Part shown: piece after piece, positions 13,815 to 32,469 of the stretch | How the letters are laid out: every line of letters begins with the position of its first letter | How positions within the stretch are numbered: the first letter of the stretch is position 1 | Source: a virus | IMG/VR virus record: IMGVR_UViG_3300020190_000227 | Span: 1 to 32,546 of that record | Strand: one strand, 5' to 3' | DNA: 32,546 nt | Notes under the pieces: model-generated | Database searches by the model: none | The model's input: the letters and a program-made list of their open reading frames with translations, nothing else | What the model was told of the DNA's origin: nothing | Position numbers and translations under genes: made by a program

Positions 13815-15766
13815 TATAGAATATAAGTTCCAGATGCCGAATCTGTATCTGAAGCATAAAAATATTCTACTGTTGTTGTTAAATTCATTGCGCCAGTCAG
13901 AGGAAAAAATCCACCTGTCGAATTAACACCATAAGCAACCCAAGATCCTAAATCATATCTATCAAAACTTAAATTATTTGTATTACCGTAAAACTTACTT
14001 CCAACAACTGTATTATTTATTTTGCCTTTTAAATTGAATAAAGATTGACCTGTTAAAGCACCACTGATAAATGCGTGATTATTTAAAGACGGATTAACAT
14101 ATGTATTTGTATTTGTGTTCCATGTTTGCAAATAACCACCAGCCAAACTACTCGTTAAACCGCTTATGTAATAATTACCACCAACTCCAGTATTAGTTAA
14201 ACCTGTATAAGAAGTAAAAACTAAATAACCAGTAGAATTAGAAATTCCCGTATTTGTTTGACAAATAAAATCAACGCCAATAACTCTACCAGAAGCTGGA
14301 AACAATGAATGATATGCAACACTGCCATATTGGCTTTGAGTATAATTAGTATTATCTAAATTTAGATATATAATATCACCAGTTGGATTGCTAGTTCTAT
14401 GTATTTGTAAAAATTTACCATAACAAAAATTATCATCACTAGTATAAATACCTTTTGTATTAATATCTCCTTGATCTGAAATTGTAACTATATTTCTGGA
14501 TGAGCTATATGTATTTGTAGAGTCGCCAGTTTGGAAAAAGAATTGGCCATTTCGAGTTATTGGACCAGAAGGACCGCTTGGACCAGATGGTCCGGCTGTT
14601 TCTTTATTAAAATCATATCCAATTATAAAAGAGTTATAATCACCTGAACCATAAGCACTAGCAACAAAACTTGTTGTGGTTGCTGCATTGCTTTGAATTC
14701 TAGTAAAAGCGTTAGATTGATTTGTTTGATATCTGCTAATGAGTGTTTGATTACCGCTGACATCTAGCGTATAATCAGGATCAATACCACCAACACCTAA
14801 ACGACCATTTGATAAATCTGCAATTAATTTATCTGTAGAAACAGCAGAAGCGGAAGCTTTATTCAGCCCGAAATGCAATTGAGATTGCGGCTGATTATAT
14901 AAAAGAGAAATTGTGTCAGTTGATCCAGTTGTTCTGAAAAATAAATTTGGAACAGACGAATCTTCTAATACTAATGTTTTATATGGAGCGCCAGCGACTG
15001 GCAAATTAGAAACCATCAAACGACCATCTGAAACTCTTTCTAAATTAGAGATTCTTACAGTTCCATCATCTTTATCGACAAAAATAGAACCGCTAATGCC
15101 AAAAAACGATCCGCTTACAGCATTTGCTGGTAAAGAATATCCTAAATACAGATCATGTGTTGTGTTAATTCCGTTTTGATTAAAAATTAAATCATTGGCA
15201 GTCGTATTATCGTCAAAACTTAATTTGATTCCTTTTTCTGCTGATAATTGAATGTTAACGCCAGAATCTACAACCGTCTTAGAATATTGAGAACCATCAG
15301 TTATCAATAAATCTCCAGAATTATTAATATACAAACTATTATTTACAATTGTGGTGCCATTATTACCGTTAATAGCAAAATTATTTAAATAATCTTTAGA
15401 AACGTACCAAGAACCAGTTGCATCGTAAAATCTAATAGCCCCTAAATATCCACTTGGATTTTCTATAGTTAAATTCACATCCGATCCCGAAACGCCGCTT
15501 ATATGCAGCAAAGAAATCGGAGAAAATGAAGCGGAATTAGCAATACCTACAAATTTATTATTGTTTGTTATTCTTACTATTCCATTATTAGAATCGTCAA
15601 CGCCCAACAATAAATCATTTCCAGATGGACTTTGTAGAAATTTAAAGTTTTTTGATAAATCTTCAAATGTTACTATTTCAGATGGAGATCCAGCATAACT
15701 TAATAAAAATAAAGCGCTATCGGGAATTTCTGTAACTTGTGGTAATTCTGGAATTGAACTTGCCAT
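13814..15766 (-). CDS. Tail fibre-like protein with collagen-type triplets
   Basis: 650 residues. The N-terminus (MASSIPELPQVTEIPDSALFLLSYAGSPSE) resembles attachment regions of phage fibres. The middle has the repeated beta-structure typical of trimeric fibres: NGRLGVGGIDPDYTLDVSGN matches the common 'G.vGIG...P...LdVsG' motif. A short collagen-like stretch, GPSGPSGPSGP, is at about residues 392-402. The C-terminal quarter is Gly/Thr/Asn/Tyr-rich and may be a globular tip; no intramolecular chaperone (S74) domain is recognised. Start at 15766 follows a 35-base gap, the largest gap in this part of the block, containing a partial match to the upstream motif (CGTGTATA). Likely a side or tip fibre for host recognition. 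The fibre character is reasonably clear; the receptor is unknown. Confidence 0.65.
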   Translation of the reverse strand: MASSIPELPQVTEIPDSALFLLSYAGSPSEIVTFEDLSKNFKFLQSPSGNDLLLGVDDSNNGIVRITNNNKFVGIANSASFSPISLLHISGVSGSDVNLTIENPSGYLGAIRFYDATGSWYVSKDYLNNFAINGNNGTTIVNNSLYINNSGDLLITDGSQYSKTVVDSGVNIQLSAEKGIKLSFDDNTTANDLIFNQNGINTTHDLYLGYSLPANAVSGSFFGISGSIFVDKDDGTVRISNLERVSDGRLMVSNLPVAGAPYKTLVLEDSSVPNLFFRTTGSTDTISLLYNQPQSQLHFGLNKASASAVSTDKLIADLSNGRLGVGGIDPDYTLDVSGNQTLISRYQTNQSNAFTRIQSNAATTTSFVASAYGSGDYNSFIIGYDFNKETAGPSGPSGPSGPITRNGQFFFQTGDSTNTYSSSRNIVTISDQGDINTKGIYTSDDNFCYGKFLQIHRTSNPTGDIIYLNLDNTNYTQSQYGSVAYHSLFPASGRVIGVDFICQTNTGISNSTGYLVFTSYTGLTNTGVGGNYYISGLTSSLAGGYLQTWNTNTNTYVNPSLNNHAFISGALTGQSLFNLKGKINNTVVGSKFYGNTNNLSFDRYDLGSWVAYGVNSTGGFFPLTGAMNLTTTVEYFYASDTDSASGTYIL

Positions 15767-15801: not shown

Positions 15802-16899
15802 TTAAGTTTTATCTGTTTGATAATCGCCAATAGAATCCGCGAACTGGTTAAAAAGCGATTTTTTCTTGATACTGCTTCGATAAATAGCATCGATTACAAA
15901 TAAAGTATTATTTACTGGAGCATTTACATAACTTACATAACTTAATTTCACAGTAGTAAGATCATCAGCGGTTGATGAAATTTGTTCTGATATTAATTTC
16001 GTAGTATTTGGATCTGAATTAAATGAAAAAAGCTTTATAGTTGAATTACCTGCTCTATAAAATAACAAAGGAGTTCCATCACCAGCGGTTAATTCATTAT
16101 TCTGAAAAACAGTGTCAACCGCAACTGTTCCATAAATTGGAGAATCTTCGTAAACAGTACCATATATATCAATCGAAAAACTTTGATTAACTCCTGTAAA
16201 TAAAGCATCAGTCATTCTTTTGCTTTCGTAATCATCAACTTCTAATGTAAAATCAACTAATACTTGAATTGGATACTTAGGTGAAACTTGAAATGGCAAA
16301 GCTGAATTTGTTATATACATTTCTTCATAAGCAATATTTGTAGAATATGAAAAATTAGTTACTCTATTAGTAGAACTATTATCACAAGTTAAAATAATAT
16401 TCGCTGGATAAATTGGAAAATCATAACTATCAGGTTTTTGACCAGTCGCATTTAATGTTCCTACTTCACCGTAAAGATAAGCATTAGGATTAGTATCTGT
16501 TATATAAATACCGCTTCCTATGTCTCCATAAACTTTTATTCCTATATTGGATTGTGGAAAGTTTCCATAACTAACGTTATAAGAATAAGAAGTTAAATAT
16601 CCAGTTTCAAAACCAAAAACTTTAGTTCCATAATTTAATGATCCTCTTAAAGTTTTTGTTCCATTTTTTGTAATACTAGATGTAATAAAAGGATCAAAAT
16701 AATCTACATATCCAACATTTCTTGTTATAGAAAAATCCGCTTGAGGAACTTCAGCTAATACATTTTTAACAACTCCTTGACCAAGAATATTGATTGGTTT
16801 AAATGTATGGCTATAAGAACCATCGACAGAAGCAACGCCTTTTAATTTAATACCATTAACAAAAACACTTTGTTCATATTGCGCTACAGCGTTTTTCAT
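15802..16899 (-). CDS. Tube-like or distal tail protein next to the tape measure
   Basis: 365 residues. The N-terminal part reads like a tail-tube fold: QSVFVNGIKLKGVASVDGSY, ILGQGVVKNVLAEVPQADFS, ITRNVGYVDYFDPFITSS, i.e. a beta-hairpin-rich domain with the 'R....DPF' pattern seen in tube-type proteins of other phages. A middle part (about 120-270) is a beta insertion. The ATG directly follows the tape measure stop (TAAATG), and the C-terminus ends in a charged tail (SSIKKKSLFNQFADSIGDY). Located where lambda has the first tip ring protein, it is probably a hexameric distal tail or tube-cap ring joining the tube to the tip. This is inference from fold pattern and position; it is not the main tube protein, which is at 29132-30595. 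Confidence 0.45.
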   Translation of the reverse strand: MKNAVAQYEQSVFVNGIKLKGVASVDGSYSHTFKPINILGQGVVKNVLAEVPQADFSITRNVGYVDYFDPFITSSITKNGTKTLRGSLNYGTKVFGFETGYLTSYSYNVSYGNFPQSNIGIKVYGDIGSGIYITDTNPNAYLYGEVGTLNATGQKPDSYDFPIYPANIILTCDNSSTNRVTNFSYSTNIAYEEMYITNSALPFQVSPKYPIQVLVDFTLEVDDYESKRMTDALFTGVNQSFSIDIYGTVYEDSPIYGTVAVDTVFQNNELTAGDGTPLLFYRAGNSTIKLFSFNSDPNTTKLISEQISSTADDLTTVKLSYVSYVNAPVNNTLFVIDAIYRSSIKKKSLFNQFADSIGDYQTDKT

Positions 16900-19800
16900 T
16901 TATTTTTTCTTAGTTGAGTCTAATAAACCGCCGCTTCTTTGTTCGTTTGTAATAACCTGCATACAAACTTCTTTAATTTTCTGACCTAATCTAGCATTTC
17001 TGTCTTGAAGTTCTTCATTTGTAGAAGTGCCTTGTTCATTAGTTTCGGTGTTGTTGTTAGCATTAACAGTAATATTAATATTAAAATTATTAGGAGCAGA
17101 AGATTGAGCTGTATTGGAATTGACATTAGCTCCAGAACCGCCAACCATTCCGCCGTCTTCAAATCTAGCAATTCCCGAATTAATTCTATTTAAACCGCCA
17201 ACACCGTATCTACGAACAGCGCGACTATTAACAATATATTCGCCGCCGCTTAATAAAGCTGGTATTGTATCATTTAAACGATTTCCATAAGGAAGATAAC
17301 CACCTGAAGCGAAACGCATTAAACCACCTGTTTGACGACCATATAAATTATAAGAAAGACCTGTTAAATTACGACTTGGAGAGTATGGTATATCATAACT
17401 CATTTTAGCTAAATTAGAAGTGGAAACATTACTCATCGTTGGCCTCATAACAGTATTTCCGTAACTTAAACCAACTTTGCCTTCAGAAAATATATTTTCA
17501 ACTCCAGATGTTGATGTAGCAGTTTTACCAAACAATCCAGAACCAGCTAAAGATCCCAATGCAATACTAAAACCAGCACTTATAGCGGTAGCGATTAATT
17601 GATTTGTAAACGCTTTTTGTTTTGCTTTCTTTTCTTGATCTTTTTGATATTGTTCGCGCAATCTATCAACATAAGCTCTGAATTCTGGATTTTGTTCTTT
17701 TCCAAATTCACTAAGATTAGCAAAAGGTTCATTCATACTTATTTGACCTGAAACAGAACCAGCATTTTGACCTCCATTAGCAAATCTTGGAAATCTATTA
17801 AAATTCAATTCATTCAAAATATTTGGTCCACCCATTGCATCAACAGCATTACGATTTAATACGTATTCGCCGTCTTCAAGTAACGCAGGATTAACATCGC
17901 CAGTACGACCAAAATCTGATATCGCCATTCCGTTTCCGCCTGCGTTGGATGGAACATAAATACCATCTTGGGCGTGAATAATTCCTCCTCTTTGCGCACC
18001 TAAATTTACTTTTGTAAAACCAGGCATTGCTGATCCAATACCCAACATTAAGTTATTAGCAATTTGTTGATTGAATGCGCTCTGTATCGTTCTTAAAAAT
18101 CCAGAAGCAACATCCATCAAAGCGCTATTCAAATTATCTGTTCGGCTTATTGCTGCATCAATAGCACCTGTCAATCCATCTCTAAATGCTAAAACAGTTG
18201 TTTTTCCTAAAGTATTTGGAAATGTTTCACTTTGTTGTTTTATTTCATCAAATGCTGATTGAACGCCAACTCTAAAAGATTTAGCATCACGAATTCTTTG
18301 TTCTTCTTGTTTATTTTTTAATCTTAATAATTCAAGCTCTTCTTCTGATTTTGTATTTATGCTCGCTTGAATTTTTTCTAATTCTGTTAATGCGTTTTTA
18401 GCTTTTGCATATTCAGGATCATTTTTACTCAAACTATCAGAATAAGTTTTTTGAGCTTGTACTAATTTATCAAGATCTTCTATATTTTTAACTTCAATAG
18501 GTTGAGCTAATGGAGCTTTATTTAATTTTGCAACTTCTTGGTTAAATCGTTCACTTCCTTTGCCAAAAACTGTTGCTAATTTCTCTCTTTCCGTTTCAAA
18601 TCGAATAGCTTCAGATCCAATTACTCCACCAACTCCTTTAGCAGATTGAATTTGTGTTTTTGCAAATAAATCAATGTCTCTACCAACTTGACGCTGCATA
18701 ATCTCCATTCTTTTTTGAGATTTTTGCTGCATTCCAAGACCATAAAGATTAGGCTCATAACCTAGAAATATTTCTTCTTTAGCTGTTTTAATTCTTGCTA
18801 AACTTTGTTCTTTATTCAAAGTGTTAAGCCTTTGATTCTCTAAATTAGAACGATCAGCAAGTATTTGTTTTTCAAATAAATTAATTCTTTCTCTCAAAGC
18901 ATTCTGAGTAGTATTAGAATCAACATTTTTTTTATCTCTTTCTAAATTTTTCGCTCTATCAGAATTCTCTCTTTCAAAATCTTTAAGTAAACCTTGTAAT
19001 TTTAATGTTTGTTCTTCTGAAAGAATCCCTTTAAAATCTTTTATAAATTGTTGTAATTGTTCTAAACTTGCTCCTTCGGGTAATTCTGAAAAACTTTTTA
19101 ATTGTTCTATCACTCTTGGATTTCTACTGATTTGTTGATTTCCAGAAACATTTTCAACAAAATTTTTAGTTAAAGAAAGTATTGCCTTTTGATTAGCTCC
19201 TTCGAATTCTTTTTGTAAAATATCTTTATTTCTCTGTCCTTGTTCAGCTATTACATCCAATGGATCTAAAATATTTTGTAATAAACTTTCTTGAAAAGAT
19301 CTGTATGAATTTGTTAATTTAGCTGAAAAATTTTCTTGTTCAATTTTTTGATTAGCTATGTTGATTTGATCAGCAAATGTTTGATTAATTTTAAAATATA
19401 TTTGTGCTAAATTTTCTTGTTCTGGTTTACGAGTTTCTGCTTGCGTTTGAATTTCTTGAACTATATCTAATTGATTTTGTAAAGCTCTTCTATTAATAGT
19501 TCCAAAAGTTCCGCTTCTACCCATAGAACCTCTAAAACCAGATCTTAATGATTCAGCAAAAGTTTTTTGTTCTTTTGTTGTTAATTTATTAAAAGTTTCA
19601 GATGTTTTTAATAAACTTTCTAAACTTCCAGAACCTTGTTTTTGCAATAAAGTTGCTGCCTTATCTCTATCAGCTAACTGTTCTGCGATTTGTTTAATAA
19701 CTGGATCTTCAGATGCAAGTGCTGCTAAATTTTTAATAGCTTCATCACTTTGTTGACGAGTAATATCTGCACCGCCTAAAGGTATAGTTCTTCTAGCTAA

Positions 19801-22800
19801 TTCAGTCTTGTCTATTTGATTGCCAAAATTTTCAATTTGATCTCCAATTTCTTTAGTTGAAGAAGTAAGAGCTAAACCGGCTCTTGCAGTAGCAGGTATT
19901 TGTTGAAATAATCTTCTTTGTTCTTTGAAAGCTTGAAATTCTTCTTTTTGAGATAAACCGCCTCTTTCTATTTTTTCTGTAATATTTAAAAACTGCTGTA
20001 AATTTTGTTGAGATTCTTTATCTTTCTTAATTGAATTTTCAATAACTTTTTCTAAATCAGAAAATGTGCTTCGAGCATCAAAAAATGATTTAGTAAGAGC
20101 AACGGTTGCGCCAGTTAAGCCGCCTATTACTGTTCCAACTGGACCAAAAATAGAACCTATAGTTGCTCCTGTAGACGCTAATGATGAAACGTTTGAAATC
20201 GCAGATCCCGCAAATCTTTGACCAAAACTTAATTCTTCTCTTGGTTTATTACCGACAAATGTTTGTTCAACTAATCCGGCAGCTAACGGTAATCCTAAAT
20301 TTAAAGCGATACCTCCAGATCCACTAAAAAATTTATTTGCTCCTTGACTAAAACCAGTTAAACCACGGGGTGATGTCGGAGTATTTTGTTGAGCAGCGGT
20401 TAGTTGTGCCGATAATTTTTGTTTCTTTTCGGCTTCTAATCTTTTAACCGTTGATTCTTTTAATGCTGATTGAACTGCTGTAGCTGCATTACTAGTTTGA
20501 CTAGCTCTATCAAGAGCGCGAGCGTATACTTGAGCTTGATTTTTTAATTGATTAATCTGTGTGCTTGTTAATGTTAAATCTGTAGCTAGACTTGCTAAAA
20601 TTTTATTTAAGTTGTCTATATATTTTCGATTAGTCGCATCAAAAACAGTGCCAGCTGGTAAACCCTTTAATAATTGAGATTCGCTTACTTCGGGTCTAAC
20701 GAAATTAGGAATAAATCCACGCGCTGTTTTAATTAAACCCACAGACATTTGATTGCTCATGGAATCCTGCAAAGCTTTTTTCTCGCCACCATGATCAGCT
20801 ACCGCAGCGGCAAAATTAGGTTGGCCGCTATTTCTTATAAACGGATAAGGTCCAGTTGTAGTGTCTAAAACAGCGTTGTTTCCGCTTATGTTTTCTTCTA
20901 ATTGCATTACTGAATCTGCATAACCAGCAAAATTTGGAACAAAACCTGAAGCCAATCTTTTACTTTCATATGCTTTAAAATTAGGAATAAAACCATCAGA
21001 AAGTGGAAAATATTGATAACCGCCACTAACCTCATATTCAGGTTTATCTTTGATTTTTAACGCGCTTAATTGCTCCCTAATACCGGGCATATTAGCTCCC
21101 AATATACTAACCTCTTTATGACCACCTCTACGAAGATCTGAAATCAATTGATTCAATAAACCTAACTGCACAACACGATTGCGCATGTTATTCTTTTTGT
21201 CTGTATAAGCAATTTTAATTTGACCCGGATTAGATTTAAAATCTAATTCAGGAGCGTCAATATCTGAAATATCAAGAAAATCAAAAGCAGTTTTTTTGCC
21301 TGTTAATTTGTTTAAAAATCTTCGAGCATTATCCATCTCTCCAAGGGAAGCTCCAGAACCTGGTTCAAGAAGTCTTTCCATAGCTTTTATTGCATTTTCA
21401 GAAGCAAAATTAGGAATGAAACCTCTTGATGCTAGTGATATTCCTTTGAAACCCAAATCCATTAAAAGTTTTTGCAATCCGGGTTCGTTTAGTGGCGCTC
21501 CTTTACCTCTTGTAACTCCTGTAGTAGTTTCTCTATGAAGTCTTCGGCTTTGTATTAATTCATCCGAAACTTCTCCAAGCCATTTATTACCACTTGTTTG
21601 GTTTACAGATTTAATTTGTTCGCTTAAATAACTGCTAATACCTCCTTTTTTAGTTAAATTGGCTCCAGATAATAGCAAAACTCTATCGCCATCAGTTAAT
21701 TGACTAAAATCGGTAATTGTAGAATAACCTTTTTTCTGAGCATATGTTGTTTTGCCAGCTCCTGATGGAGCTAATAAAATATCTTTAATTAATTTTGGAT
21801 TATCTAATATATATTTTTTAAGATTTTCAAATTTACCTGCATAACCTCCTTCAAAAACATCAGAATCATAAACCCAGTTTTTAGCAAAATTAGGTATAAA
21901 ACCTTTTGCTGAATTAAATAAATTTAAATTCTTTTCGTATTTTGCAGCATCCGCTTCGCGATATAAAAGTGGTTTATCGATAGATTCTGGCGCAGTTATT
22001 AATTTTAAATTTTTATTTTTATATAACTGTATATTATCTATGCCGGGTGAAAATTCTTTTAAGAATTGATTGTATTCTGGATTAGTATAATTCTCGAATG
22101 GAAATCTTAAAAATTTCTCTTCAACAGCTTTTTTACTATAATTTCCAGATTTTCCTTCAATTAAATCGGGACCATCAGAAATAAAATCCAAAGCCGAAGA
22201 ACTAGAAAATTTTATTTCTCCGCTAGAACTTGTTGGGTTTAGATAAGGATATTTATCTTTAATTTCATTTTCAAATACTTTGCCTAAACTACTGTTTGCC
22301 TCGCTTAATTGAGATAAAATCTTTTTTCTTTTTTCTACAGCAGCTTTATATTTAGGGGTTGCGGGATCAAATTTTTCTGTTATTATTTCTGGTATAAATA
22401 ATTTATCGTCGAGCTGAATCTTATCAGCATAACCTTGCTTTTTTAATTCTGATAAAGATTGAGCGACACGACCATAACCAAGAATGCCAGCCACAGATGA
22501 TTGCGCAAAATTAGGTATAAATCCTCCAGCAGAAATCCCCGGAGTAACTCTTTTTGCTTCTTTTAAAATTTCTCCTCTAACATCTGTTATAGCTTGTGGA
22601 CCGAAACTTTTTGTTGATGTTCCAAAACCTTCTTTCAAATATAATTTAGGATCAAGTTGATCAACTGGATTTATATAAACTACTTTATTGCCAGACTTTG
22701 CGGCTTCATTATATTCATTCGCAACTAAAACATTCTTCCAAACTCTTTTAGTTAATATATCGAAATTACCGGGATCAGTTCTAACTCTCTGAAATTTATC

Positions 22801-25359
22801 ATTAATATTTCTATTTTCTACTTCGCCACCTTTGATTTCGAAAAATGTTTTTGTCGCAAAATCAACTGCGTCAACAGCAGTTTGACCAGATCCTGCACCA
22901 AATAAACCTATTGATTCGGCAGTAACTGCACCACCAAAACCCATTTTCTTTATTTCTTTTAACGCAAACTCTTCATAAGCTTTACCGAAACCTTGCTTAA
23001 GAACGTTTTGAACTTTATCTCTTTCTTCTTGAGAAATATTTGGATCATTAATTATTTTTAGTAAATCAGGATAAGCAGCTTCGTAAGATTTTGAACTTTT
23101 CCATCTCGCAACAACAGAAGCGGCTTTTATTTGCGGTGCTACAGAAGGAGTTTCAGGAACAGCTTTATATTGTTTTTCTGCCGTGAAAGTTGACTTACCA
23201 ATTTCAGCACTTGTTGTTGGCGTGAAACCTCTTTCTGTTTGTTTAAGAAAATTAGTTAAAGTGGCCGGTACATATTTTTCTTTTGTTTCTACTTCGTATT
23301 GACCTAAATATGTTTGTAATTGAGCAACTAATTGAGGATTTTGTCTGTACCAATTTATATCGCTTAAATTTGCTTGATTTAAAAACGCCGCACCACCTGA
23401 TTTACCTCTCAACCATTCTTTGAAATCTCCGATACCAAAATTAGGAATATAACCTGCTGCGCGATAAGGATTTACACCAGTCTCTCTAATCGCATTGGAT
23501 TTATGCATCATTCCTGCTCTTGAATATTCCGGAGGATTAATAAAAGGCTGCGCAAATCCAGGAACATATTTAATAGTTTCAGCAGTGTTCATGACACCAC
23601 CAACTGGAGAAGGAACTACTGTACCCGGTTTATAGCCTCCCGAAATAGCTCCAGCCATTTCCGCTCTTCTTGCTCCTTCTGGTACGTATCCACCGCCATA
23701 TATTGGAATATAACCACCAGCTTTAATGTTTCCAACTTGTAAACCAGCACCACCGACTTGAATATTTTTACCAACCAATACAGCAGAAAGTTGTTTAGCT
23801 ATGTTTAATTGCTGTTGATATTTTGCTGTTTGATTTGCAGCTAAATCTAATAAAATTTTTTGTTGATTAACTAAATTCCCCTGTTCTCCTTGTAATGCTA
23901 TTGAAACTTTAGATTGACCTTGTAAAATATCTAATATAGCAGCTTCAACATCTTTTCTTTTTTGAGCTTGTGTCGTTATTCCTAATAATGTTGGTATAGC
24001 TGTAGTGATATCTTTGAAAGTATTACCAATAACTTTTGTAATAATAGCAACAGTACCAAATAAAACAGGACCACCCAAAACATTTTTAATTCCTTTTAAT
24101 AATCCACCCGCAAATTGCGAACCTAAACCTTCTCCTTCTAAAATTTGATTTATATAACTTATTGCATCGTTAAATGGAGAAATTAAATTTTTAAATACAG
24201 GTTCAAAAGTTACTTTGCCAATATTACTGCTTAGTTGTTGTAAATTAGTTCCTGTTTGAGAGATGAGCGCTGCAAGAGTAACGTTTAATGCAGCGTTAGC
24301 TTGTTGCGCTTCATTAGTTGCTTTTGCACCAATTTCTAAAGCTTTATTATAATTTCCCTGTTGATCATTTAAATCAGATAAAATTGATTTAAGAATGTTT
24401 ACTTGATAAACACCTGCAACCTGTTCTGCTAAAGCGGATCTTGAAGTATCAGCGAGTGAATTATATGACGCGGCTAAATTTTGTAAAATTTGTACTGCCG
24501 GTAATACATTTCCCTCAATATCTCTAACAGCGATATTAAAATTTTCAAGTTGAGTTAAAGTTTCGGGACGTTGTAAACGTGTAAAAATTGTTTTTAATGC
24601 GTTACCGATGACAGCACCACCACGCGCAGTTTTTTCTTGAGCTGAAGTTACTAAAGCATTTAATTGATCAAAATTAACACCAGCTTCTTGAGCGGCCTGA
24701 CCAGTACGAGATACAGCGCTTGTTAAATCTGCTGCGGAAACGGCAAATTGTTGTTCTACGGCAACGATTTTATTTAAAATAGTTGTTGTATCTAAAGACG
24801 ATTGGGCATAAGCGTTAGTTACAGCTGTTAAATCTTCAACCGCTTGTTTGGCCGAAACACCAGTTAAACGAACAAGAGTTAATGCGTCAGAAACTCTTTG
24901 AAGCGTTTGTTCTGTAGATAAACCTTGTCTAGAAAATTCAAGAGCAGCTTCAGAAGCGTCTTGGAAACTCGAAGCCGTAGCTTTTGCAACACCGAAAAGA
25001 TCACTAGAAAATTTTTGTAAACCAGATGATGAAAGAGCTAAAACGCGATTAATATCTACTAAAGCTTTTTCAACTTCAATTGTAGAACTAGCTAAATCTT
25101 TAAACGATTTTGCAACACCACCGATAACCGCTGTAGAAGCGCCGAATGCAAGTACGCGAGCATTGGAAGCAGCAAGAGCAGATTCAAATTGTTTTAAATC
25201 GCCAGTAATTCTACCTAAAGGCTGAGAAAATGTTTTAGGATCAATTCCTAAATTTAATTGGTTTTGACTAGCAAATCTGGCATTATATGCTGCAACACCC
25301 TGTGCTATACTTTGAGCTAAAGCTGTTTGACTCGCTTGTACATTAATCGTGACTGCCAT
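16900..25359 (-). CDS. Giant tape measure protein with internal enzyme-like inserts
   Basis: 2819 residues. Residues about 60-290 match the conserved tape measure domain of the TP901 type (AALEFSRQGLSTEQTLQRV, AQEAGVNFDQLNALVTSAQE, IGNALKTIFTRL). A hydrophobic stretch is at about 440-470. Residues about 549-1554 hold an array of GFIPNFA-type repeats separating inserted segments, listed separately. After it come an Ala/Gly-rich hydrophobic region (about 1680-1760), long Gln/Glu/Lys-rich coiled coil (about 1770-2420), two copies of the 'PALL..GEY..N..AV' motif common near tape measure C-termini (about residues 2490 and 2705), a hydrophobic stretch between them (about 2585-2610), and an Asn-rich tail. 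Tape measures set tail length, are threaded through the tube and are ejected into the host. It follows the chaperone genes by 24 bases with an AGGTGTAA motif before the ATG. Confidence 0.95.
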   Translation of the reverse strand: MAVTINVQASQTALAQSIAQGVAAYNARFASQNQLNLGIDPKTFSQPLGRITGDLKQFESALAASNARVLAFGASTAVIGGVAKSFKDLASSTIEVEKALVDINRVLALSSSGLQKFSSDLFGVAKATASSFQDASEAALEFSRQGLSTEQTLQRVSDALTLVRLTGVSAKQAVEDLTAVTNAYAQSSLDTTTILNKIVAVEQQFAVSAADLTSAVSRTGQAAQEAGVNFDQLNALVTSAQEKTARGGAVIGNALKTIFTRLQRPETLTQLENFNIAVRDIEGNVLPAVQILQNLAASYNSLADTSRSALAEQVAGVYQVNILKSILSDLNDQQGNYNKALEIGAKATNEAQQANAALNVTLAALISQTGTNLQQLSSNIGKVTFEPVFKNLISPFNDAISYINQILEGEGLGSQFAGGLLKGIKNVLGGPVLFGTVAIITKVIGNTFKDITTAIPTLLGITTQAQKRKDVEAAILDILQGQSKVSIALQGEQGNLVNQQKILLDLAANQTAKYQQQLNIAKQLSAVLVGKNIQVGGAGLQVGNIKAGGYIPIYGGGYVPEGARRAEMAGAISGGYKPGTVVPSPVGGVMNTAETIKYVPGFAQPFINPPEYSRAGMMHKSNAIRETGVNPYRAAGYIPNFGIGDFKEWLRGKSGGAAFLNQANLSDINWYRQNPQLVAQLQTYLGQYEVETKEKYVPATLTNFLKQTERGFTPTTSAEIGKSTFTAEKQYKAVPETPSVAPQIKAASVVARWKSSKSYEAAYPDLLKIINDPNISQEERDKVQNVLKQGFGKAYEEFALKEIKKMGFGGAVTAESIGLFGAGSGQTAVDAVDFATKTFFEIKGGEVENRNINDKFQRVRTDPGNFDILTKRVWKNVLVANEYNEAAKSGNKVVYINPVDQLDPKLYLKEGFGTSTKSFGPQAITDVRGEILKEAKRVTPGISAGGFIPNFAQSSVAGILGYGRVAQSLSELKKQGYADKIQLDDKLFIPEIITEKFDPATPKYKAAVEKRKKILSQLSEANSSLGKVFENEIKDKYPYLNPTSSSGEIKFSSSSALDFISDGPDLIEGKSGNYSKKAVEEKFLRFPFENYTNPEYNQFLKEFSPGIDNIQLYKNKNLKLITAPESIDKPLLYREADAAKYEKNLNLFNSAKGFIPNFAKNWVYDSDVFEGGYAGKFENLKKYILDNPKLIKDILLAPSGAGKTTYAQKKGYSTITDFSQLTDGDRVLLLSGANLTKKGGISSYLSEQIKSVNQTSGNKWLGEVSDELIQSRRLHRETTTGVTRGKGAPLNEPGLQKLLMDLGFKGISLASRGFIPNFASENAIKAMERLLEPGSGASLGEMDNARRFLNKLTGKKTAFDFLDISDIDAPELDFKSNPGQIKIAYTDKKNNMRNRVVQLGLLNQLISDLRRGGHKEVSILGANMPGIREQLSALKIKDKPEYEVSGGYQYFPLSDGFIPNFKAYESKRLASGFVPNFAGYADSVMQLEENISGNNAVLDTTTGPYPFIRNSGQPNFAAAVADHGGEKKALQDSMSNQMSVGLIKTARGFIPNFVRPEVSESQLLKGLPAGTVFDATNRKYIDNLNKILASLATDLTLTSTQINQLKNQAQVYARALDRASQTSNAATAVQSALKESTVKRLEAEKKQKLSAQLTAAQQNTPTSPRGLTGFSQGANKFFSGSGGIALNLGLPLAAGLVEQTFVGNKPREELSFGQRFAGSAISNVSSLASTGATIGSIFGPVGTVIGGLTGATVALTKSFFDARSTFSDLEKVIENSIKKDKESQQNLQQFLNITEKIERGGLSQKEEFQAFKEQRRLFQQIPATARAGLALTSSTKEIGDQIENFGNQIDKTELARRTIPLGGADITRQQSDEAIKNLAALASEDPVIKQIAEQLADRDKAATLLQKQGSGSLESLLKTSETFNKLTTKEQKTFAESLRSGFRGSMGRSGTFGTINRRALQNQLDIVQEIQTQAETRKPEQENLAQIYFKINQTFADQINIANQKIEQENFSAKLTNSYRSFQESLLQNILDPLDVIAEQGQRNKDILQKEFEGANQKAILSLTKNFVENVSGNQQISRNPRVIEQLKSFSELPEGASLEQLQQFIKDFKGILSEEQTLKLQGLLKDFERENSDRAKNLERDKKNVDSNTTQNALRERINLFEKQILADRSNLENQRLNTLNKEQSLARIKTAKEEIFLGYEPNLYGLGMQQKSQKRMEIMQRQVGRDIDLFAKTQIQSAKGVGGVIGSEAIRFETEREKLATVFGKGSERFNQEVAKLNKAPLAQPIEVKNIEDLDKLVQAQKTYSDSLSKNDPEYAKAKNALTELEKIQASINTKSEEELELLRLKNKQEEQRIRDAKSFRVGVQSAFDEIKQQSETFPNTLGKTTVLAFRDGLTGAIDAAISRTDNLNSALMDVASGFLRTIQSAFNQQIANNLMLGIGSAMPGFTKVNLGAQRGGIIHAQDGIYVPSNAGGNGMAISDFGRTGDVNPALLEDGEYVLNRNAVDAMGGPNILNELNFNRFPRFANGGQNAGSVSGQISMNEPFANLSEFGKEQNPEFRAYVDRLREQYQKDQEKKAKQKAFTNQLIATAISAGFSIALGSLAGSGLFGKTATSTSGVENIFSEGKVGLSYGNTVMRPTMSNVSTSNLAKMSYDIPYSPSRNLTGLSYNLYGRQTGGLMRFASGGYLPYGNRLNDTIPALLSGGEYIVNSRAVRRYGVGGLNRINSGIARFEDGGMVGGSGANVNSNTAQSSAPNNFNINITVNANNNTETNEQGTSTNEELQDRNARLGQKIKEVCMQVITNEQRSGGLLDSTKKK
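21424..21882 (-). other. Tape measure insert 3: P-loop NTPase/kinase-like segment
   Basis: Residues 1160-1312 between two GFIPNFA copies. IKDILLAPSGAGKTTYAQKK contains APSGAGKT (1197-1204), an exact match to the Walker A pattern [AG]-x4-G-K-[ST], preceded by a hydrophobic strand and followed by a helix, as in P-loop kinases. A hydrophobic DGDRVLLLSG follows (about 1225), a possible second strand. Only about 150 residues are available, small but sufficient for a compact kinase. An Arg/His-rich segment (SRRLHRETTTGVTRGKG) follows. Substrate unknown. Confidence 0.5.
21904..22503 (-). other. Tape measure insert 2: second PD-(D/E)XK-like segment
   Basis: Residues 953-1152 between two GFIPNFA copies. 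A helix GKVFENEIKDKYPYL supplies Glu1030/Glu1032; after a Ser-rich loop, SALDFISDGPDLIEGKSGN gives Asp1058, Glu1068 and Lys1070 (D-x9-E-x-K), again with hydrophobic strands. Order and spacing of these elements parallel insert 1, although the two segments are not close in sequence. A divergent duplication or independent acquisition are both possible. Confidence 0.45.
22525..23433 (-). other. Tape measure insert 1: PD-(D/E)XK nuclease-like segment
   Basis: Residues 643-945, bounded by GYIPNFG and GFIPNFA. The second half carries a nuclease-fold signature: a helix with acidic residues (GKAYEEF, Glu796/Glu797), then AVDAVDFATKTFFEIKGG with Asp833 (or Asp830), Glu841 and Lys843 in the D-x7-E-x-K arrangement, a hydrophobic strand before each, and a following Gln/Arg-containing segment. 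The first half has no recognised family. Expected for the fold: metal-dependent DNA or RNA cleavage. Motif only; activity is inference. Confidence 0.5.
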
Positions 25360-25383: not shown

Positions 25384-26370
25384 TCAAACTCCCATTAAAT
25401 TCATAAGATCTTTCATATCAAGACTACCGCCCTTTTTCTTCGCTTCTTCAGATAAAGACAATGACTTAACCTTACCTTTCTTCATATTTATGTAATCGTA
25501 ATCTTCTTTTGTTGCGCCTACGATTGATTCAGCTTGTCCTTCTTTAGCTTTACTTTTTACTTCTTTAGCTTTTTCATTTGCATTTACATAATCAATTATC
25601 TTCTCTGGATCTTTCTTGTATTCCTCTGGAATATTATCGTTATGACTTAATACATTTTTGAAATATCTTGAATACAATAACATTTTAATCTGATTAAATG
25701 TTAATTGAACAATCGGGCGACCAAAAAAGTGAATTGGATCTTCACAATAAGGCATATAATAACTATAAAAATCGCGCAAAACCATTTTTTGAATATTAGA
25801 GTCTGAAGAATCTTTATTTAATTTATTGTAAAAATGAATTAAAACACCTAACTGACCAACTGGAATTTCATCGAATTCCGGTTCTGTATACAATGGAATC
25901 TTGCAATCAGAATCTTTAAACAAAGTATTTTTTAAGAAATCTTCTGTTATTTTTTGATCAGCAAAATTCTCACATGTATTTCCAAGAAATGAGTTTCTTT
26001 TATTTTTTAACTCGTTTATTTTTTTAAGTGAATCTTCTATCTGTTTATTAAAAGAATCAATTTGCGATTTAAGATATGTATTTTTCTTTTGATCATATAG
26101 TTTTTTAACAAATAATTCTTCTTGAGCTATTGTGTTTTCTTCGTTTTTTGTCCAATAACCCTCTTCATATAAATCAGCAAGGGCTTCCTCAACGGTAGGA
26201 AGCCCCATGCTTTTTGCTCTTTCTATATATTGCAAACGCGCCTCATCAATAACATTTTGCTCAAATATGCTTACATGTTTAACAAAACCAGTTATAAAAT
26301 CTGTTTTTAAAGGACTTGCACCAAGGCAAATTTCTTTAAATAGCTTTTTTAACTGCAAATCGTCATCCAT
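25384..26370 (-). CDS. Probable tail assembly chaperone, second of pair
   Basis: 328 residues, mostly helical. A coiled coil spans about residues 85-128 (KSQIDSFNKQIEDSLKKINE). A conserved-looking core follows: YSYYMPYCEDPIHFFGRPIV then QLTFNQIKMLLYSRYFKN (about 205-240). The C-terminus is Lys-rich and probably flexible (KAKEVKSKAKEGQAES, KKKGGSLDMKDLMNLMGV). It sits directly before the tape measure, where lambda has G and GT. The start overlaps the previous stop as TAATG and is preceded by AGGGTGA, a usable Shine-Dalgarno. In lambda the second product is made by -1 frameshifting; here termination-reinitiation is the simpler reading. Function is inferred from position, helical character and size. 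Confidence 0.5.
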   Translation of the reverse strand: MDDDLQLKKLFKEICLGASPLKTDFITGFVKHVSIFEQNVIDEARLQYIERAKSMGLPTVEEALADLYEEGYWTKNEENTIAQEELFVKKLYDQKKNTYLKSQIDSFNKQIEDSLKKINELKNKRNSFLGNTCENFADQKITEDFLKNTLFKDSDCKIPLYTEPEFDEIPVGQLGVLIHFYNKLNKDSSDSNIQKMVLRDFYSYYMPYCEDPIHFFGRPIVQLTFNQIKMLLYSRYFKNVLSHNDNIPEEYKKDPEKIIDYVNANEKAKEVKSKAKEGQAESIVGATKEDYDYINMKKGKVKSLSLSEEAKKKGGSLDMKDLMNLMGV

Positions 26371-27125
26371 TATTCACCCTTGACGATTTTATCAAATTCA
26401 TCTTTATTTGCTGTTCCAGAGAAGAACCAGTAGCTAAATATGCTTGCTAACTTCAAATAAACTTCAGCGTAAAGAGGATCTTGAGAATCTTCGAGAACAG
26501 TTAAATAATCTTCTTTATCTTCGAAGTTCTTACCTTCGAAAATTGGAACAAAGTCTTTATGATTCTTTGTTGGATCCTTGAAATAGGACAAATTTAATAC
26601 ATACCATAAAATAGAACGATTCTGCGCTCTTGTGTCAGCTGTATGATTGAATAAATTTAAATAGCTTGTTTCGCGAGCAACGATTTCTTTCTGAAGACCC
26701 AATAATTGAGCTTCTTTACTTAGCAACTCTTCCTTTTGCTCTTCCGTTCTTTCAGCTTCAGCAACAATACGCAAAGAAATAACTGCTGTTTGTAGTTTTT
26801 CAAGTTCTTTATAAAGATCAACTAGTTGCTTTGCATCTGTTTCGCTGGCAAGTCCGCCAGTATCTTTATATTTATTAAGCAACATTGCCTTTGTAAGAAT
26901 ACCTTGCTTAATCGCCTTACTCATTTCAACAGAATAAATTAACTCAGCTTCTTGAACCTGTTTTCTATTTGGTTCTCGAAGTTGAATTTCCACAGGAACT
27001 TCTTTTTCAATCATTTCGGTGATCGTTCTTTCCTTCTCGACTTCACCGTCCATGTATTTTTCTACTCTTTTTTCTTCTACTTTTGTTTTCTTTTGGACAT
27101 TAAATGTGTAAATATTCTTAGACAT
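26370..27125 (-). CDS. Probable tail assembly chaperone, first of pair
   Basis: 251 residues, highly charged and helical. The N-terminal 50 residues are Lys/Glu-rich beta-hairpin-like (KVEEKRVEKYMDGEVEKERT), followed by REPNRKQVQEAELIYSVEMS, a pattern seen in tail-chaperone type proteins that process an early helix before the core. Residues about 100-155 are coiled coil (KELEKLQTAVISLRIVAEAE). The C-terminal part ends in YAEVYLKLASIFSYWFFSGT. It is the first gene of the long minus-strand tail block, 34 bases from the divergent plus-strand gene. The assignment as tape measure chaperone depends on position two genes before the tape measure; no enzyme motif is present. Confidence 0.5.
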   Translation of the reverse strand: MSKNIYTFNVQKKTKVEEKRVEKYMDGEVEKERTITEMIEKEVPVEIQLREPNRKQVQEAELIYSVEMSKAIKQGILTKAMLLNKYKDTGGLASETDAKQLVDLYKELEKLQTAVISLRIVAEAERTEEQKEELLSKEAQLLGLQKEIVARETSYLNLFNHTADTRAQNRSILWYVLNLSYFKDPTKNHKDFVPIFEGKNFEDKEDYLTVLEDSQDPLYAEVYLKLASIFSYWFFSGTANKDEFDKIVKGE

Positions 27126-27159: not shown

Positions 27160-27615
27160 ATGGCTACCAGTTTATTATCAGCGAGCGAAAAAGAACAATT
27201 GAATCAAGTAATCGACGACGTGCATGAAACATTTGCACGCACAATTACTGTTTATAAAGAAGCTTCAGAAGTAGTCATTATCACTGATCCTAATTTTAAC
27301 CCACTTTATAATACTGCTGGTCAAACCACATCTATTATCAATACACCTGTTTACAAGCAATTTAAAGCAAGAATTTTTTATAATAACGACATTGGTAAAA
27401 AATATTGGAGCGAAGGTGAAGTTAATACACAAATTAAATTGCAAGCTGTAGTTGGAACCGTCAGATTAAAAATTGCAGCAGAAGATTACGAATTCATAAA
27501 AGATGCAAGACGTTTTGATTTAGACGGTAAACGATTCGTTGTAAATTCAGCTTTTAGAGGACATGGTTTATTTGATAATCAATATTATACTTTATATTTA
27601 AAGCCTGATCCATAA
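27160..27615 (+). CDS. Probable head closure (stopper) protein
   Basis: 151 residues: an N-terminal helix (EKEQLNQVIDDVHETFARTI), then a beta-barrel-like run (YKQFKARIFYNNDI, VVGTVRLKIAAEDYEF, KRFVVNSAFRGHGLFD, YYTLYLKPDP). Size and strand pattern fit small barrel proteins of the connector such as SPP1 gp16. It opens the plus-strand cassette that ends with the tube protein, and head-closure genes often precede neck, terminator and tube genes in this order. The next gene begins one base after the stop (TAATATG). The ATG lies in an A/T-rich leader without a Shine-Dalgarno. No enzymatic motif. Function is inferred from order and fold pattern. Confidence 0.45.
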   Translation: MATSLLSASEKEQLNQVIDDVHETFARTITVYKEASEVVIITDPNFNPLYNTAGQTTSIINTPVYKQFKARIFYNNDIGKKYWSEGEVNTQIKLQAVVGTVRLKIAAEDYEFIKDARRFDLDGKRFVVNSAFRGHGLFDNQYYTLYLKPDP

Positions 27616-27616
27616 T

Positions 27617-28213
27617 ATGAAAATAGACGACAGAGATTTAAATGAGATCTTGGATCAATTAAATACTCAATCAGTATATACTAAGTTTGCTGACGATATT
27701 GTTGAAAAAGAATTTGAAAAAGTAAAAAGAGAAATATTAACTGAGTTTAATAATCATCCTGTAACTGTTGAAATTGAAGGCGGTATTTATGCTAGCAATG
27801 TTTCTAATACTTTAAGTGGTATTACAAATTTGTTTTCTTTTATTGGATTTGAAGCAAACGACAAGCCTATTGAACCTGTACGAAATCTTTTACAGCAATC
27901 AGCAATGCGTAAAAATTTTGGTCGAAGAGGGTTTATTTCATACACTTTTGAAATACCAACTGCAAAAGATATATTTTTAATCACGCCGCTACCTTGGGCA
28001 ATTGGTCGCAGTTGGGCAAAAGGAATCGAAGAAGGATTATCAGGTCTTGGATATTATCTTAAAAAAACAAAAAACAGTCGATCTGGATTGGGCGTTCAAT
28101 CTCAAAAAATAATACGCCCTCAATATAGATATCGAAATATAAAATATATTTCCGATTTAATTAATAAATATAATCAAAGAATCAAAGATATAGAAAAAAA
28201 ATATAAATTATGA
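27617..28213 (+). CDS. Probable neck/tail-completion protein
   Basis: 198 residues. N-terminal helical part (DDIVEKEFEKVKREILTEFN), a central beta segment (NHPVTVEIEGG; FISYTFEIPTAKDIFLIT), then PLPWAIGRSWAKGIEEGLSG, a pattern resembling HK97 gp10-type neck proteins where a Gly/Trp-containing loop links strands to a helix. The C-terminus is strongly basic and helical (NKYNQRIKDIEKKYKL) and may contact DNA or the capsid connector. The stop TGA overlaps the next ATG (ATGA), so translation is likely coupled. The neck assignment is by order between closure and terminator candidates and by weak pattern; it remains tentative. Confidence 0.4.
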   Translation: MKIDDRDLNEILDQLNTQSVYTKFADDIVEKEFEKVKREILTEFNNHPVTVEIEGGIYASNVSNTLSGITNLFSFIGFEANDKPIEPVRNLLQQSAMRKNFGRRGFISYTFEIPTAKDIFLITPLPWAIGRSWAKGIEEGLSGLGYYLKKTKNSRSGLGVQSQKIIRPQYRYRNIKYISDLINKYNQRIKDIEKKYKL

Positions 28214-29073
28214 TACCGAAATATTCGCACGATATAATGACTTCTTTCTTTTTGTGGTTTGATCGTTTTATAATGACAAAAAGCGAAGCTTATCAAACAC
28301 AAACTACAAAATTTTATAATTATTCAGATGACAGACTTGGTAATGGCAAAGTTGTATATGGCAGCCCATACAAACAATGGGTTTATGATAATGGAATCCC
28401 GAATGCAATTATTCCAAGCGGATTAACAATCAATGGAACTTTTGTTCCAACAGGAACTAGTGGTTTGTTTTTTGATTTTGATAATGGTCGCGCAATATTT
28501 AATAGCGGCGTATCTACTGGTTTAAATATAACTGGAACTTATACAGTAAAAGAAATAAATACTTATATAACTGATCAGCCCGAAGATGATTTAATTATTG
28601 AAAATAAATACATTACAAACAGCAGATTTACTGTAGCTGAAAATTATATTAGTCCATATAATCCAGTAACTCCAGCAGCTTTTTGTTCAATTGAAACAAT
28701 GGACAATCAAGGTTATGCTTTAGGTGGTTTAGATGAAACTTCTGTAAGAGTTAAGGTAGTCGCATTTTGTGAAAATTTATATCAGTTAGATGGATTTTTA
28801 AGTACATTTGCGGATTCATATAATACTTGTTTTAAAGTTATACCAATGACAGGTCATCCATTAGGAGAATTTTATAAACTTAAAACAGGCATTTATCCAA
28901 CTGGTTATGATTATAAAAACGCAATAACAAGCTCAACAGTAACTACACCTTGTTATATTTATGATGTAAATACGTCCAAAATACGCGATAGCGTATTGCG
29001 CGAACTGAACCCAACACTGCACATTGGATTTATTGATTTCGAAATAGGCAATACCCGATACCCCAGAATATAA
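28210..29073 (+). CDS. Probable tail terminator protein with an inserted beta domain
   Basis: 287 residues, long for a tail terminator (lambda U is 131). The N-terminal helix (DIMTSFFLWFDRFIMTKSEA) and the C-terminal part (SVRVKVVAFCENLYQLDGFL, then DSVLRELNPTLHIGFIDFEI) look like the alpha/beta terminator core. Between them, about residues 75-170 form a Thr/Asn/Gly-rich beta segment (LTINGTFVPTGTSGLFFDFD, YTVKEINTYITDQPEDDLII) that could be a separate module. It lies immediately before the tube gene, as lambda U precedes V. The gene ends 58 bases before the tube gene, leaving room for a promoter. Role inferred from position. Confidence 0.45.
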   Translation: MIPKYSHDIMTSFFLWFDRFIMTKSEAYQTQTTKFYNYSDDRLGNGKVVYGSPYKQWVYDNGIPNAIIPSGLTINGTFVPTGTSGLFFDFDNGRAIFNSGVSTGLNITGTYTVKEINTYITDQPEDDLIIENKYITNSRFTVAENYISPYNPVTPAAFCSIETMDNQGYALGGLDETSVRVKVVAFCENLYQLDGFLSTFADSYNTCFKVIPMTGHPLGEFYKLKTGIYPTGYDYKNAITSSTVTTPCYIYDVNTSKIRDSVLRELNPTLHIGFIDFEIGNTRYPRI

Positions 29074-29131
29074 TTTCCCATACACATAAAAAATCTGTAA
29101 AAATAAATAACAATTTAACTAACAAAAACAT
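29074..29131 (+). promoter_or_regulatory. A-rich leader of the tube gene, candidate late promoter
   Basis: The largest gap in the plus-strand cassette, just before its most highly needed product. It contains CTGTAAAAATAAATAAC; AATAAATA at 29102-29109 resembles the late-promoter core of T4-type phages (TATAAATA) at a plausible distance from the ATG. In such A/T-rich sequence a chance match is easy, and no T4-type late sigma factor gene is in view, so confidence is low. Confidence 0.25.
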
Positions 29132-30595
29132 ATGTCAAGAAATCGTATAATCTATCAAAGCAAAGCTTTATTCATTGGACCAAATTCAACTGGTATGCAA
29201 ACTTGGCCATCAGGTAATTGGGTACATAATGTTGCTGCGCCTTCTGATCTACTTAGTCCATACACAGATACTGGATACGCTAATTACGCTGATACTGTAA
29301 AACAATTTGTAAGAACCGGAACAATGCCATCAGGTCTAGGAAATGATCAAATTATTAACGGTACAGGTCTTCTTTATAAACTAGATCGCGTACAAAATTG
29401 TAATTTCAACTTCACAATTAATCGTCAAGATATTAATGAATTTGGTAAACTCGCTCGTTTAGCCACAATTGCTAATGAACCACCAACCGTAACTCTTGAT
29501 TTTAGCTATTACCTCACAGACGGTTTGAATGAACGTTTACTTGGATTTAACTTTGGTGGAGTCGAAGGAGGCAAAAAAGGCGCTCCAGATTTTGATACAG
29601 CAATGGCTACTGGAGCAAGCGCTCTTTCTGGCTTTTTAAGAGAAACTCAAGGACAAAATTATTATATTTTAACTGTTGATGAAGGCGAAGACGTTGTTGG
29701 CGCTTCTACAACAAGCTCCACAGATAGTGTTGTTGCAATTGGTAACGGTTTCTTAACTGAATATTCATTTACAGCTTCTGTAGGTGAAGTTCCAACAGCT
29801 AACGTCACAATTGAAGGATTTAACATCAAGAGCGATGTTGGTCGTAATGGCTCATTCGGATATACAGGCTCATCTCCAGCGATTGACACCTCAAATTCTC
29901 CCGCTTCGAGAATTACGGGATTCAATAAATCTTATAAGATAAACGCCAATCAAATTAACAACACTTTTGGTACTGGCGCTGCCTCAGTATCAGCATTGCG
30001 CCCCGGTGATATTGTATTATCTTCTTCGCTTTCAAGTTCTGCATTAGAAGATCCAATGGTTCAAGTTACCAACTTTAACGACAACAGTGTTAGAGTACAA
30101 AGCTTTGGATTCACAATTCCTCTTGCAAGAACAGTTCTTAGCCGCTTAGGTACTTTATTCGGTTATAACAGAGTTGTTCAAGTTCCATTAAACATGGACG
30201 TAACAATTAACGCCCTTGTTAATGAACTCGAAAATAAAGATATGTTTAATATTCTTTGTGGCGATCAACCCGCTAAAGACTTCACTATTACATTAAATAA
30301 ATGCGCTGACATCGGTGAAAGCACCCAAGCTAAAATCGCGTTCGCATTCAAAGGAGCTATTTTAACAAGCGAAAATCATTCAACAGATATTGGTGGTAAT
30401 GAAACTGTTGATCTCACATATTCCATTCAAATCGGTGGTGCAAACGATAATTCCAACGGCGTGTTCATGAGCGGAAGCTATGGCACAGGCATAGCAACTC
30501 CCGGAGCTTCAAACTGGAGTGGAGTTTATCCATATTTAGGCTTATCTGGACTATTAACTAATTTCTACGGTATTGGTACTGCTAGAAATTACTAA
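29132..30595 (+). CDS. Major tail tube protein
   Basis: 487 residues. The tube-type core shows YKLDRVQNCNFNFTINRQDI then NEFGKLARLATIANEPPTVT and LDFSYYLTDGLNERLLGFNF, and a second strand-rich half: EYSFTASVGEVPTANVTIEG, LENKDMFNILCGDQPAKDFT, VDLTYSIQIGGANDNSNGVF. It is larger than lambda V (246 residues), and the middle and C-terminal Ser/Gly-rich parts may be surface domains. Codons look tuned (GGT, AAC, GTT rich) compared with the tape measure, consistent with high expression, though this was judged by eye. A strong terminator follows directly, and an A-rich leader precedes it. As tail tube it would form the rings polymerising around the tape measure. It is on the opposite strand to the tape measure and chaperones. 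Confidence 0.7.
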   Translation: MSRNRIIYQSKALFIGPNSTGMQTWPSGNWVHNVAAPSDLLSPYTDTGYANYADTVKQFVRTGTMPSGLGNDQIINGTGLLYKLDRVQNCNFNFTINRQDINEFGKLARLATIANEPPTVTLDFSYYLTDGLNERLLGFNFGGVEGGKKGAPDFDTAMATGASALSGFLRETQGQNYYILTVDEGEDVVGASTTSSTDSVVAIGNGFLTEYSFTASVGEVPTANVTIEGFNIKSDVGRNGSFGYTGSSPAIDTSNSPASRITGFNKSYKINANQINNTFGTGAASVSALRPGDIVLSSSLSSSALEDPMVQVTNFNDNSVRVQSFGFTIPLARTVLSRLGTLFGYNRVVQVPLNMDVTINALVNELENKDMFNILCGDQPAKDFTITLNKCADIGESTQAKIAFAFKGAILTSENHSTDIGGNETVDLTYSIQIGGANDNSNGVFMSGSYGTGIATPGASNWSGVYPYLGLSGLLTNFYGIGTARNY

Positions 30596-31177: not shown

Positions 31178-31185
31178 TTACACCT
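31178..31185 (-). promoter_or_regulatory. Upstream motif AGGTGTAA before the possible adaptor gene
   Basis: AGGTGTAA with an eight-base spacer (TAATATAT), the same spacing as at the tape measure; it overlaps the TAG stop of the Ig-domain gene. Confidence 0.45.
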
Positions 31186-32445: not shown

Positions 32446-32462
32446 AAAATATATAAGAAAAA

Positions 32463-32469
32463 TTACACT
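32463..32469 (-). promoter_or_regulatory. Upstream motif AGTGTAA before the LamG gene
   Basis: AGTGTAA with a 17-base spacer to the ATG at 32445, overlapping the TAG stop of the upstream paralogue. This is the longest spacer in the set. Confidence 0.35.

Follow-up and report, generated by a model that had tools for sequence, protein, structure and literature searches.

The window analysed here, the virus record IMGVR_UViG_3300020190_000227 at its full length of 32,546 bases, encodes a tape measure protein whose middle part consists of segments separated by copies of the heptapeptide GFIPNFA. Comparison with relatives at the level of sequence showed that these segments, termed cassettes below, have been added, lost, replaced or put in a different order, and that the breakpoints lie at the heptads, the N-terminal part of the protein being nearly identical. 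We think it rather probable that the array is made up of exchangeable, effector-type cassettes that are fenced by the heptad and carried as cargo in the tape measure.

Heptad-bounded cassettes of the tape measure and their exchange

The gene lies on the minus strand (16900..25359) and codes for 2819 amino acids (aa). It was assigned to the tape measures by a PhageMin_Tail match in its N-terminal part (aa 125-316, 1.7e-23), by matches to tape-measure families of PHROG, and by its position inside a lambda-like tail gene block, which showed matches to J, tail assembly protein (twice) and minor tail protein. Seven heptads of the form G[FY][IV]PNFx divide aa 636-1554 of this open reading frame (ORF). 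With at least five of seven matches to GFIPNFA required for a heptad, 1000 shuffled versions of the same protein contained 0.04 heptads on average and three at most. The gaps between the heptads measure 303, 200, 153, 136, 9, and 69 aa, which agrees with the segment lengths given in an earlier note on this DNA. That note had listed three degenerate copies in addition to the seven heptads, and these fared differently. GYIPIYG (aa 549; 23695-23715) is probably a decayed heptad, designated heptad 0, because aa 545-642 are homologous to a stretch of relatives that has a real heptad near aa 540. SGQPNFA (aa 1511) was rejected, as relatives of that module have NSSQPTF at this place, and GYVPEGA is doubtful. 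The parts of the protein are as follows.

16900..25359, minus strand: tape measure protein with cassette array, 2819 aa
23740..25359, minus strand: aa 1-540, N-terminal part of the tape measure, constant among relatives (86.5% identical in L338, 60-76% in 36 other clade members)
23455..23727, minus strand: first constant module, aa 545-635, containing the probable decayed heptad 0
23434..23454, minus strand: heptad 1, GYIPNFG, aa 636
22525..23433, minus strand: cassette 1, aa 643-945, PD-(D/E)XK nuclease-like, core about aa 790-870 (L338 homologue 45%)
22504..22524, minus strand: heptad 2, GFIPNFA, aa 946
21904..22503, minus strand: cassette 2, aa 953-1152, second PD-(D/E)XK nuclease-like domain (L338 homologue 46%, at another position)
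21883..21903, minus strand: heptad 3, GFIPNFA, aa 1153
21424..21882, minus strand: cassette 3, aa 1160-1312, P-loop kinase-like domain (motifs, model and structural matches)
21403..21423, minus strand: heptad 4, GFIPNFA, aa 1313
20995..21402, minus strand: cassette 4, aa 1320-1455, unassigned domain (sole relative found in L338, 49%)
20974..20994, minus strand: heptad 5, GFIPNFK, aa 1456
20926..20946, minus strand: heptad 6, GFVPNFA, aa 1472
20719..20925, minus strand: constant cap module, aa 1479-1547 (59 profile matches)
20698..20718, minus strand: heptad 7, GFIPNFV, aa 1548
16903..20697, minus strand: C-terminal part, aa 1555-2819, probable ruler

For the comparison with relatives, 2.9 million virus contigs were scanned for DNA encoding GFIPNFA, which gave at least 120 stretches, mostly within long ORFs carrying 2 to 8 heptads, and two further heptad spellings were added. 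The multi-heptad set comprises at least 233 ORFs and at least 787 heptads from uncultivated phages; all family sizes reported here are lower bounds. Clustering of the 560 segments obtained from this set gave 149 sequence clusters, of which 92 have a single member. Two families with modules of about 64-70 aa were nearly always last in the array (71 of 73 cases and, for family c4 to which the cap module belongs, 33 of 35), and others, e.g., c2, were always first. The variable cassettes sit between constant first and last modules. A profile of aa 545-642, which covers the first module, found 216 matches, including the last module of some members (L109, L039).

The cassettes differ even between tape measures whose N-termini are 92-98% identical. 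As an example, three members with near-identical N-termini have the orders c12-c6-c10-c4 (L016), c11-c6-c10-c4 (L085), and c12-c6-c4 (L099). In pairwise alignments, identity falls at one heptad and recovers at the next. For 90 pairs, 139 of 188 sharp breaks lay at most 5 residues from a shared heptad, in zones covering 6.9% of the alignment columns, and when the heptads were masked before alignment, 156 of 192 sharp breaks fell in such zones, then covering 11.8% of the columns; the pairs share ancestry and their breaks are not independent events, with 89 distinct conserved-side tags seen near heptads. L338, the closest relative among the matches listed (upstream gene 90% and N-terminus 86.5% identical), holds all four cassettes of the window (45-56% identity); its array reads 1+3, new, 4, 2, new, cap, with cassettes 1 and 3 fused without a heptad between them. 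The same N-terminal flank, different cassettes, and breaks at heptads bear out the exchangeable, heptad-bounded segments that the earlier note had postulated.

The region behind the last heptad diverges as well in some pairs and may be exchanged too. L016 and L085, for example, whose N-termini are 97% identical, share only about 15-30% identity there, and the two sequences become similar again near the C-terminus. In the window, the C-terminal part has a weakly hydrophobic stretch near aa 1737-1755 followed by sequence that by eye is mostly helix-prone, and the best 19-residue hydropathy downstream of the array is 1.57.

Domain types of the cassettes

Three of the four long segments had been credited with enzyme-like signatures, and this was corroborated by residues that are invariant in divergent relatives. 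The residues E, D, and (D/E)-x-K of PD-(D/E)XK nucleases occur in this order in the families of both cassette 1 and cassette 2, whose relatives are 26-41% identical. In cassette 1, E, D, and E-x-K are invariant with L006 and L093, and in cassette 2, E16, D44, E54, and K56 are invariant in five sequences that are 26-33% identical. Between the two cassettes themselves there is weak similarity (domain E 0.03). Searches among solved structures with profiles of cassettes 1 and 2 yielded matches at chance level only.

Cassette 3 has a P-loop (GxxGxGK[ST]-type) and lid arginines, R128 and R131, that are invariant in 22 sequences. Its structural model has a mean predicted local distance difference test (pLDDT) score of 73.7, with most of the core at 70-90, and is globular. 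Structural matches of the model were polynucleotide kinase (Z 7.3, root-mean-square deviation (rmsd) 3.5 over 109 residues), zeta toxin (Z 7.0, rmsd 4.1 over 140) and adenylate kinases (Z 6-7). These matches agree with the sequence motifs and place cassette 3 among P-loop kinase-like domains, in the class of polynucleotide kinases, zeta toxins, and nucleoside monophosphate kinases. Both heptads flanking the cassette are disordered in the model, which fits a linker or a short linear motif. Cassette 4 matched no Pfam or PHROG family.

Among 95 representative cassettes of the set, Pfam recognized GNAT, SNase, HIGH_NTase1_ass (cytidyltransferase-associated), and GHKL ATPase (HATPase) domains, and HAD-like and HExxH motifs also occur. 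Pfam names few of them, most sequence families having no match, and scans of the same 95 cassettes with PADLOC and NCBIfam gave almost nothing. For a new cassette of L338 (aa 1200-1390; locus 10805-11377), RG and STS-like motifs seen by eye had been read as an ADP-ribosyltransferase; this reading was dropped, as no Pfam family matched.

Conservation and distribution of the heptad

The consensus over the first 392 heptads was A[AS]xG[FY][IV]PNFA, with G at 99% and with P, N, and F fixed by the search pattern. At the heptads, codon use differs little from the background in the same genes, and therefore it is the peptide and not the DNA that is selected; by this comparison of codons, the heptad is shown to be conserved as a peptide. 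The earlier note had suggested that near-identical DNA at each heptad helps recombination. This idea gained no support, since the similarity is what the amino acids and an AT-rich genome require, and a function of the heptad DNA as recombination site is unsupported, given the background codon use. Shared sequence around the junctions may nevertheless help crossovers.

All multi-heptad ORFs whose N-terminus is intact are tape measures, and the 69 ORFs lacking a tape-measure N-terminal match all begin at the edge of their locus. For a test independent of the heptad, the gene directly upstream of the tape measure was used as bait. This gene and the next one are conserved neighbours.

25384..26370, minus strand: 328-aa gene directly upstream of the tape measure, in 87 of 91 loci; candidate for a tail-assembly chaperone and for the partner of the heptad
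26370..27125, minus strand: 251-aa gene, in 87 of the same 91 loci

The 91 loci are those with at least 1.3 kb of upstream sequence, and neither gene matched a Pfam family. The bait found at least 80 loci, and 76 of the 80 adjoining tape measures have two or more heptads, so the heptads appear close to being a property of this tape-measure lineage. The four exceptions were one truncated ORF, one short ORF, L414 with a single heptad, and L381 with none. The pattern scans and the upstream-gene bait thus agree on conservation in relatives, which the earlier note had required. It had named three outcomes as contrary to its proposal; what was found instead is that relatives vary between the heptads, that cassette 3 is predicted to be globular, and that the heptads are conserved.

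Two kinds of long ORFs stand apart. L381 encodes a 2452-aa tape measure without any heptad beside the conserved upstream gene and could represent an empty or ancestral state. L087 and L232 contain ORFs of about 1270 aa that resemble other tape measures and have one heptad near the C-terminus, in a module (GFIPNFA-x-GNLSPGEAAG...NTSEAIIP...KGFIPNYA) that by eye looks like the cap module and may show the origin of the heptad.

A search for close relatives with the whole protein found none. With tblastn against 50,697 cultivated-phage records, no match was obtained for the constant modules, the array of the window, the arrays of three relatives, or the upstream gene. The hypothesis that the family resides in prophages was rejected, as only two contigs of metagenome-assembled genomes (MAGs) carry it among 84,980 species genomes, one family-bearing contig having the label Flavobacteriales; the other heptad matches in these genomes were chance frames or repeated unrelated ORFs. 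The upstream gene was present in one of 396 genomes of the order to which one family-bearing MAG belongs, and this one was the MAG itself.

Proposed cargo function, alternative explanations and related systems

We propose the following mechanism. The array sits between the conserved N-terminal part and the long C-terminal part and ends in the constant cap module. Each cassette would be an independently folding domain, often of an enzyme type that phages use against their hosts (nuclease, kinase, acetyltransferase), and would be fenced by a flexible linker with the constant core peptide GFIPNFA. Since tape measures exit the tail during infection, the cassettes would enter the cell envelope or the cytoplasm together with the genome, where their immediate targets might be the nucleic acids of the host or of competitors, or host defence. 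The tape measure of phage lambda associates with inner-membrane proteins at genome injection (PMC13190303), and injection of multi-effector polyvalent proteins has been proposed for phages (PMC5512222; PMC7824862). In the weakest step of the proposal, the heptad would be a short docking motif to which one common partner binds at every junction, so that any heptad-flanked cassette could be packaged. Possible partners are a tail-assembly chaperone, the tube wall, or a neighbouring tape-measure chain, and the candidates include the products of the two conserved upstream genes. Docking to a common partner seems the most likely function of the heptad, followed by processing.

Several observations weigh against cassettes that are folded effector enzymes. 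No Pfam family matched the window's own cassettes, cassette 3 reaches only modest structural scores (Z up to 7.3), near the level reached without true relatives, and Foldseek found no significant match for this cassette (best E 0.013, TM 0.2-0.3); a Foldseek search against a viral library likewise gave nothing significant. The model of a c2-c0-c1 mini-array had a mean pLDDT of 44 and was not used. Furthermore, the lumen of the tail tube is about 4 nm wide and would hardly accommodate folded domains of 15-30 kDa, so the cassettes may transit unfolded or sit at one end.

The length of the array bears on whether it is cargo or part of the ruler. Measured in 38 members of the clade that includes the window, the part preceding the array has mostly 629-635 aa and the part following it 1378 ± 107 aa (8% variation), whereas the array itself ranges from 300 to 1070 aa (3.5-fold) and is uncorrelated with the length of the C-terminal part (rho 0.03, p 0.87). 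Since the array length is free and uncompensated, the array is probably cargo and not ruler. A variable ruler part without separate function, as its location inside a tape measure might suggest, is accordingly hard to credit, also in view of the predicted globular fold of cassette 3. Even less credence is due to selfish in-frame inserts, such as homing nuclease elements, that target the heptad codons. Several cassettes are indeed nuclease-like and the insertions lie exactly at heptads, but background codon use there leaves no conserved DNA target, many cassettes are not nucleases, the cap modules do not vary, and the cassette ends read x-G-F-I-P-N-F, unlike the ends of inteins.

Processing deserves more attention, though we regard it as unlikely. 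The heptad would then be cut by a phage or host protease to free separate enzymes, comparable to the cleavages by the T4 head proteases and that of phage P1 DarA, and a single constant peptide at all junctions, conserved as peptide and lying in a disordered linker, would be expected of such a site. However, no protease was matched among the genes tested in the window, which is a fragment, and heptads also close the constant cap, although release of the cargo needs only one cut. Moreover, the heptad is hydrophobic, which to our knowledge distinguishes it from known phage protease sites. The cassettes might also be host-range adaptors and not enzymes, binding proteins of the host envelope or inner membrane for the passage of DNA and changing with the host. 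Rapid cassette exchange would suit this explanation, as would what is known of lambda-type tape measures, which decide whether ManYZ is needed and interact with membrane proteins of the host (PMC13190303). We consider it quite improbable, since catalytic residues are invariant in divergent cassette families and SNase, GNAT, and HATPase domains are recognizable.

The proposed effector-type cargo has its nearest counterparts in polyvalent proteins and polymorphic toxins. Like the former (Iyer et al., 2017; PMC5512222), in which several effector-type enzyme domains share one polypeptide and for which injection together with the DNA has been proposed, the array combines two PD-(D/E)XK-like domains and one P-loop domain in the window and GNAT, SNase, and HATPase domains in relatives; GNAT domains are named among polyvalent-protein domains in a survey of jumbo phages (PMC7824862). 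The cassettes differ from polyvalent proteins in that they lie within a structural protein of the tail, have one constant heptad as their boundary, and are swapped singly at it, and Iyer et al. (2017; PMC5512222) mention neither tape measures nor linkers. Polymorphic toxins, including MuF-type phage forms, also pair a constant carrier with toxin-type or enzyme domains that can be exchanged (Zhang et al., 2012; PMC3482391), but they have a C-terminal variable domain and an adjacent immunity gene. Here, several variable domains are internal (aa 643-1455 of 2819, followed by the cap and the long C-terminal part), at variance with a defining trait of this class, and the gene next downstream is a conserved phage gene in 144 loci, although an immunity gene may lie elsewhere. 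Enzyme domains within tape measures are present in lytic forms such as T5 pb2 and those with an SPbeta-type lytic transglycosylase, which degrade the cell wall; the scan of 95 cassettes revealed no wall hydrolase, and we know of no heptad array in lytic tape measures. Ongoing domain shuffling links the family to a study of phage protein mosaicism, in which tape measures gave a sequence-level mosaic signal and recent genuine mosaicism could not be confirmed for them (PMC10684548). Judged by the alignments, the heptad-bearing tape measures provide clear cases of it.

Neither the heptad in this context nor this layout was found in open-licence PMC papers, preprints excluded, and there is a fair chance that the array represents a new kind of delivery system. 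More tentatively, and as a possibility towards which we do not quite lean, the family could embody a general cargo system of an uncultivated tailed-phage lineage, in which the GFIPNFA linkers are the address and any domain flanked by them can be loaded and sent into the host. Phage proteins delivered with the DNA are poorly known, especially in uncultivated phages, and the heptad offers a simple search key for candidate first-minute effectors, with about 149 sequence families from at least 233 ORFs. If the cargo system is general, many uncharacterised early effectors could be read from environmental phage genomes via the heptad, and should the heptad prove to be a docking address, it might be tried as a protein-delivery signal for phage tails in laboratory strains.

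Some further genes of the window were noted. The conserved gene directly downstream of the tape measure (15802-16899, minus strand) encodes 365 aa and matched neither Pfam nor PHROG. It is followed by a gene for a 650-aa protein with a short collagen-like GPSGPSGPSGP stretch (13814-15766, minus strand), present in only 15 loci, all from closer relatives of the window. On the opposite strand, a run of four genes (27160-30595, plus strand) has no Pfam or PHROG match. At 31774-32544 and 31184-31732 (minus strand), a Laminin_G / concanavalin-like lectin domain (3.6e-22) adjoins an Ig-like, Hoc-type decoration domain.
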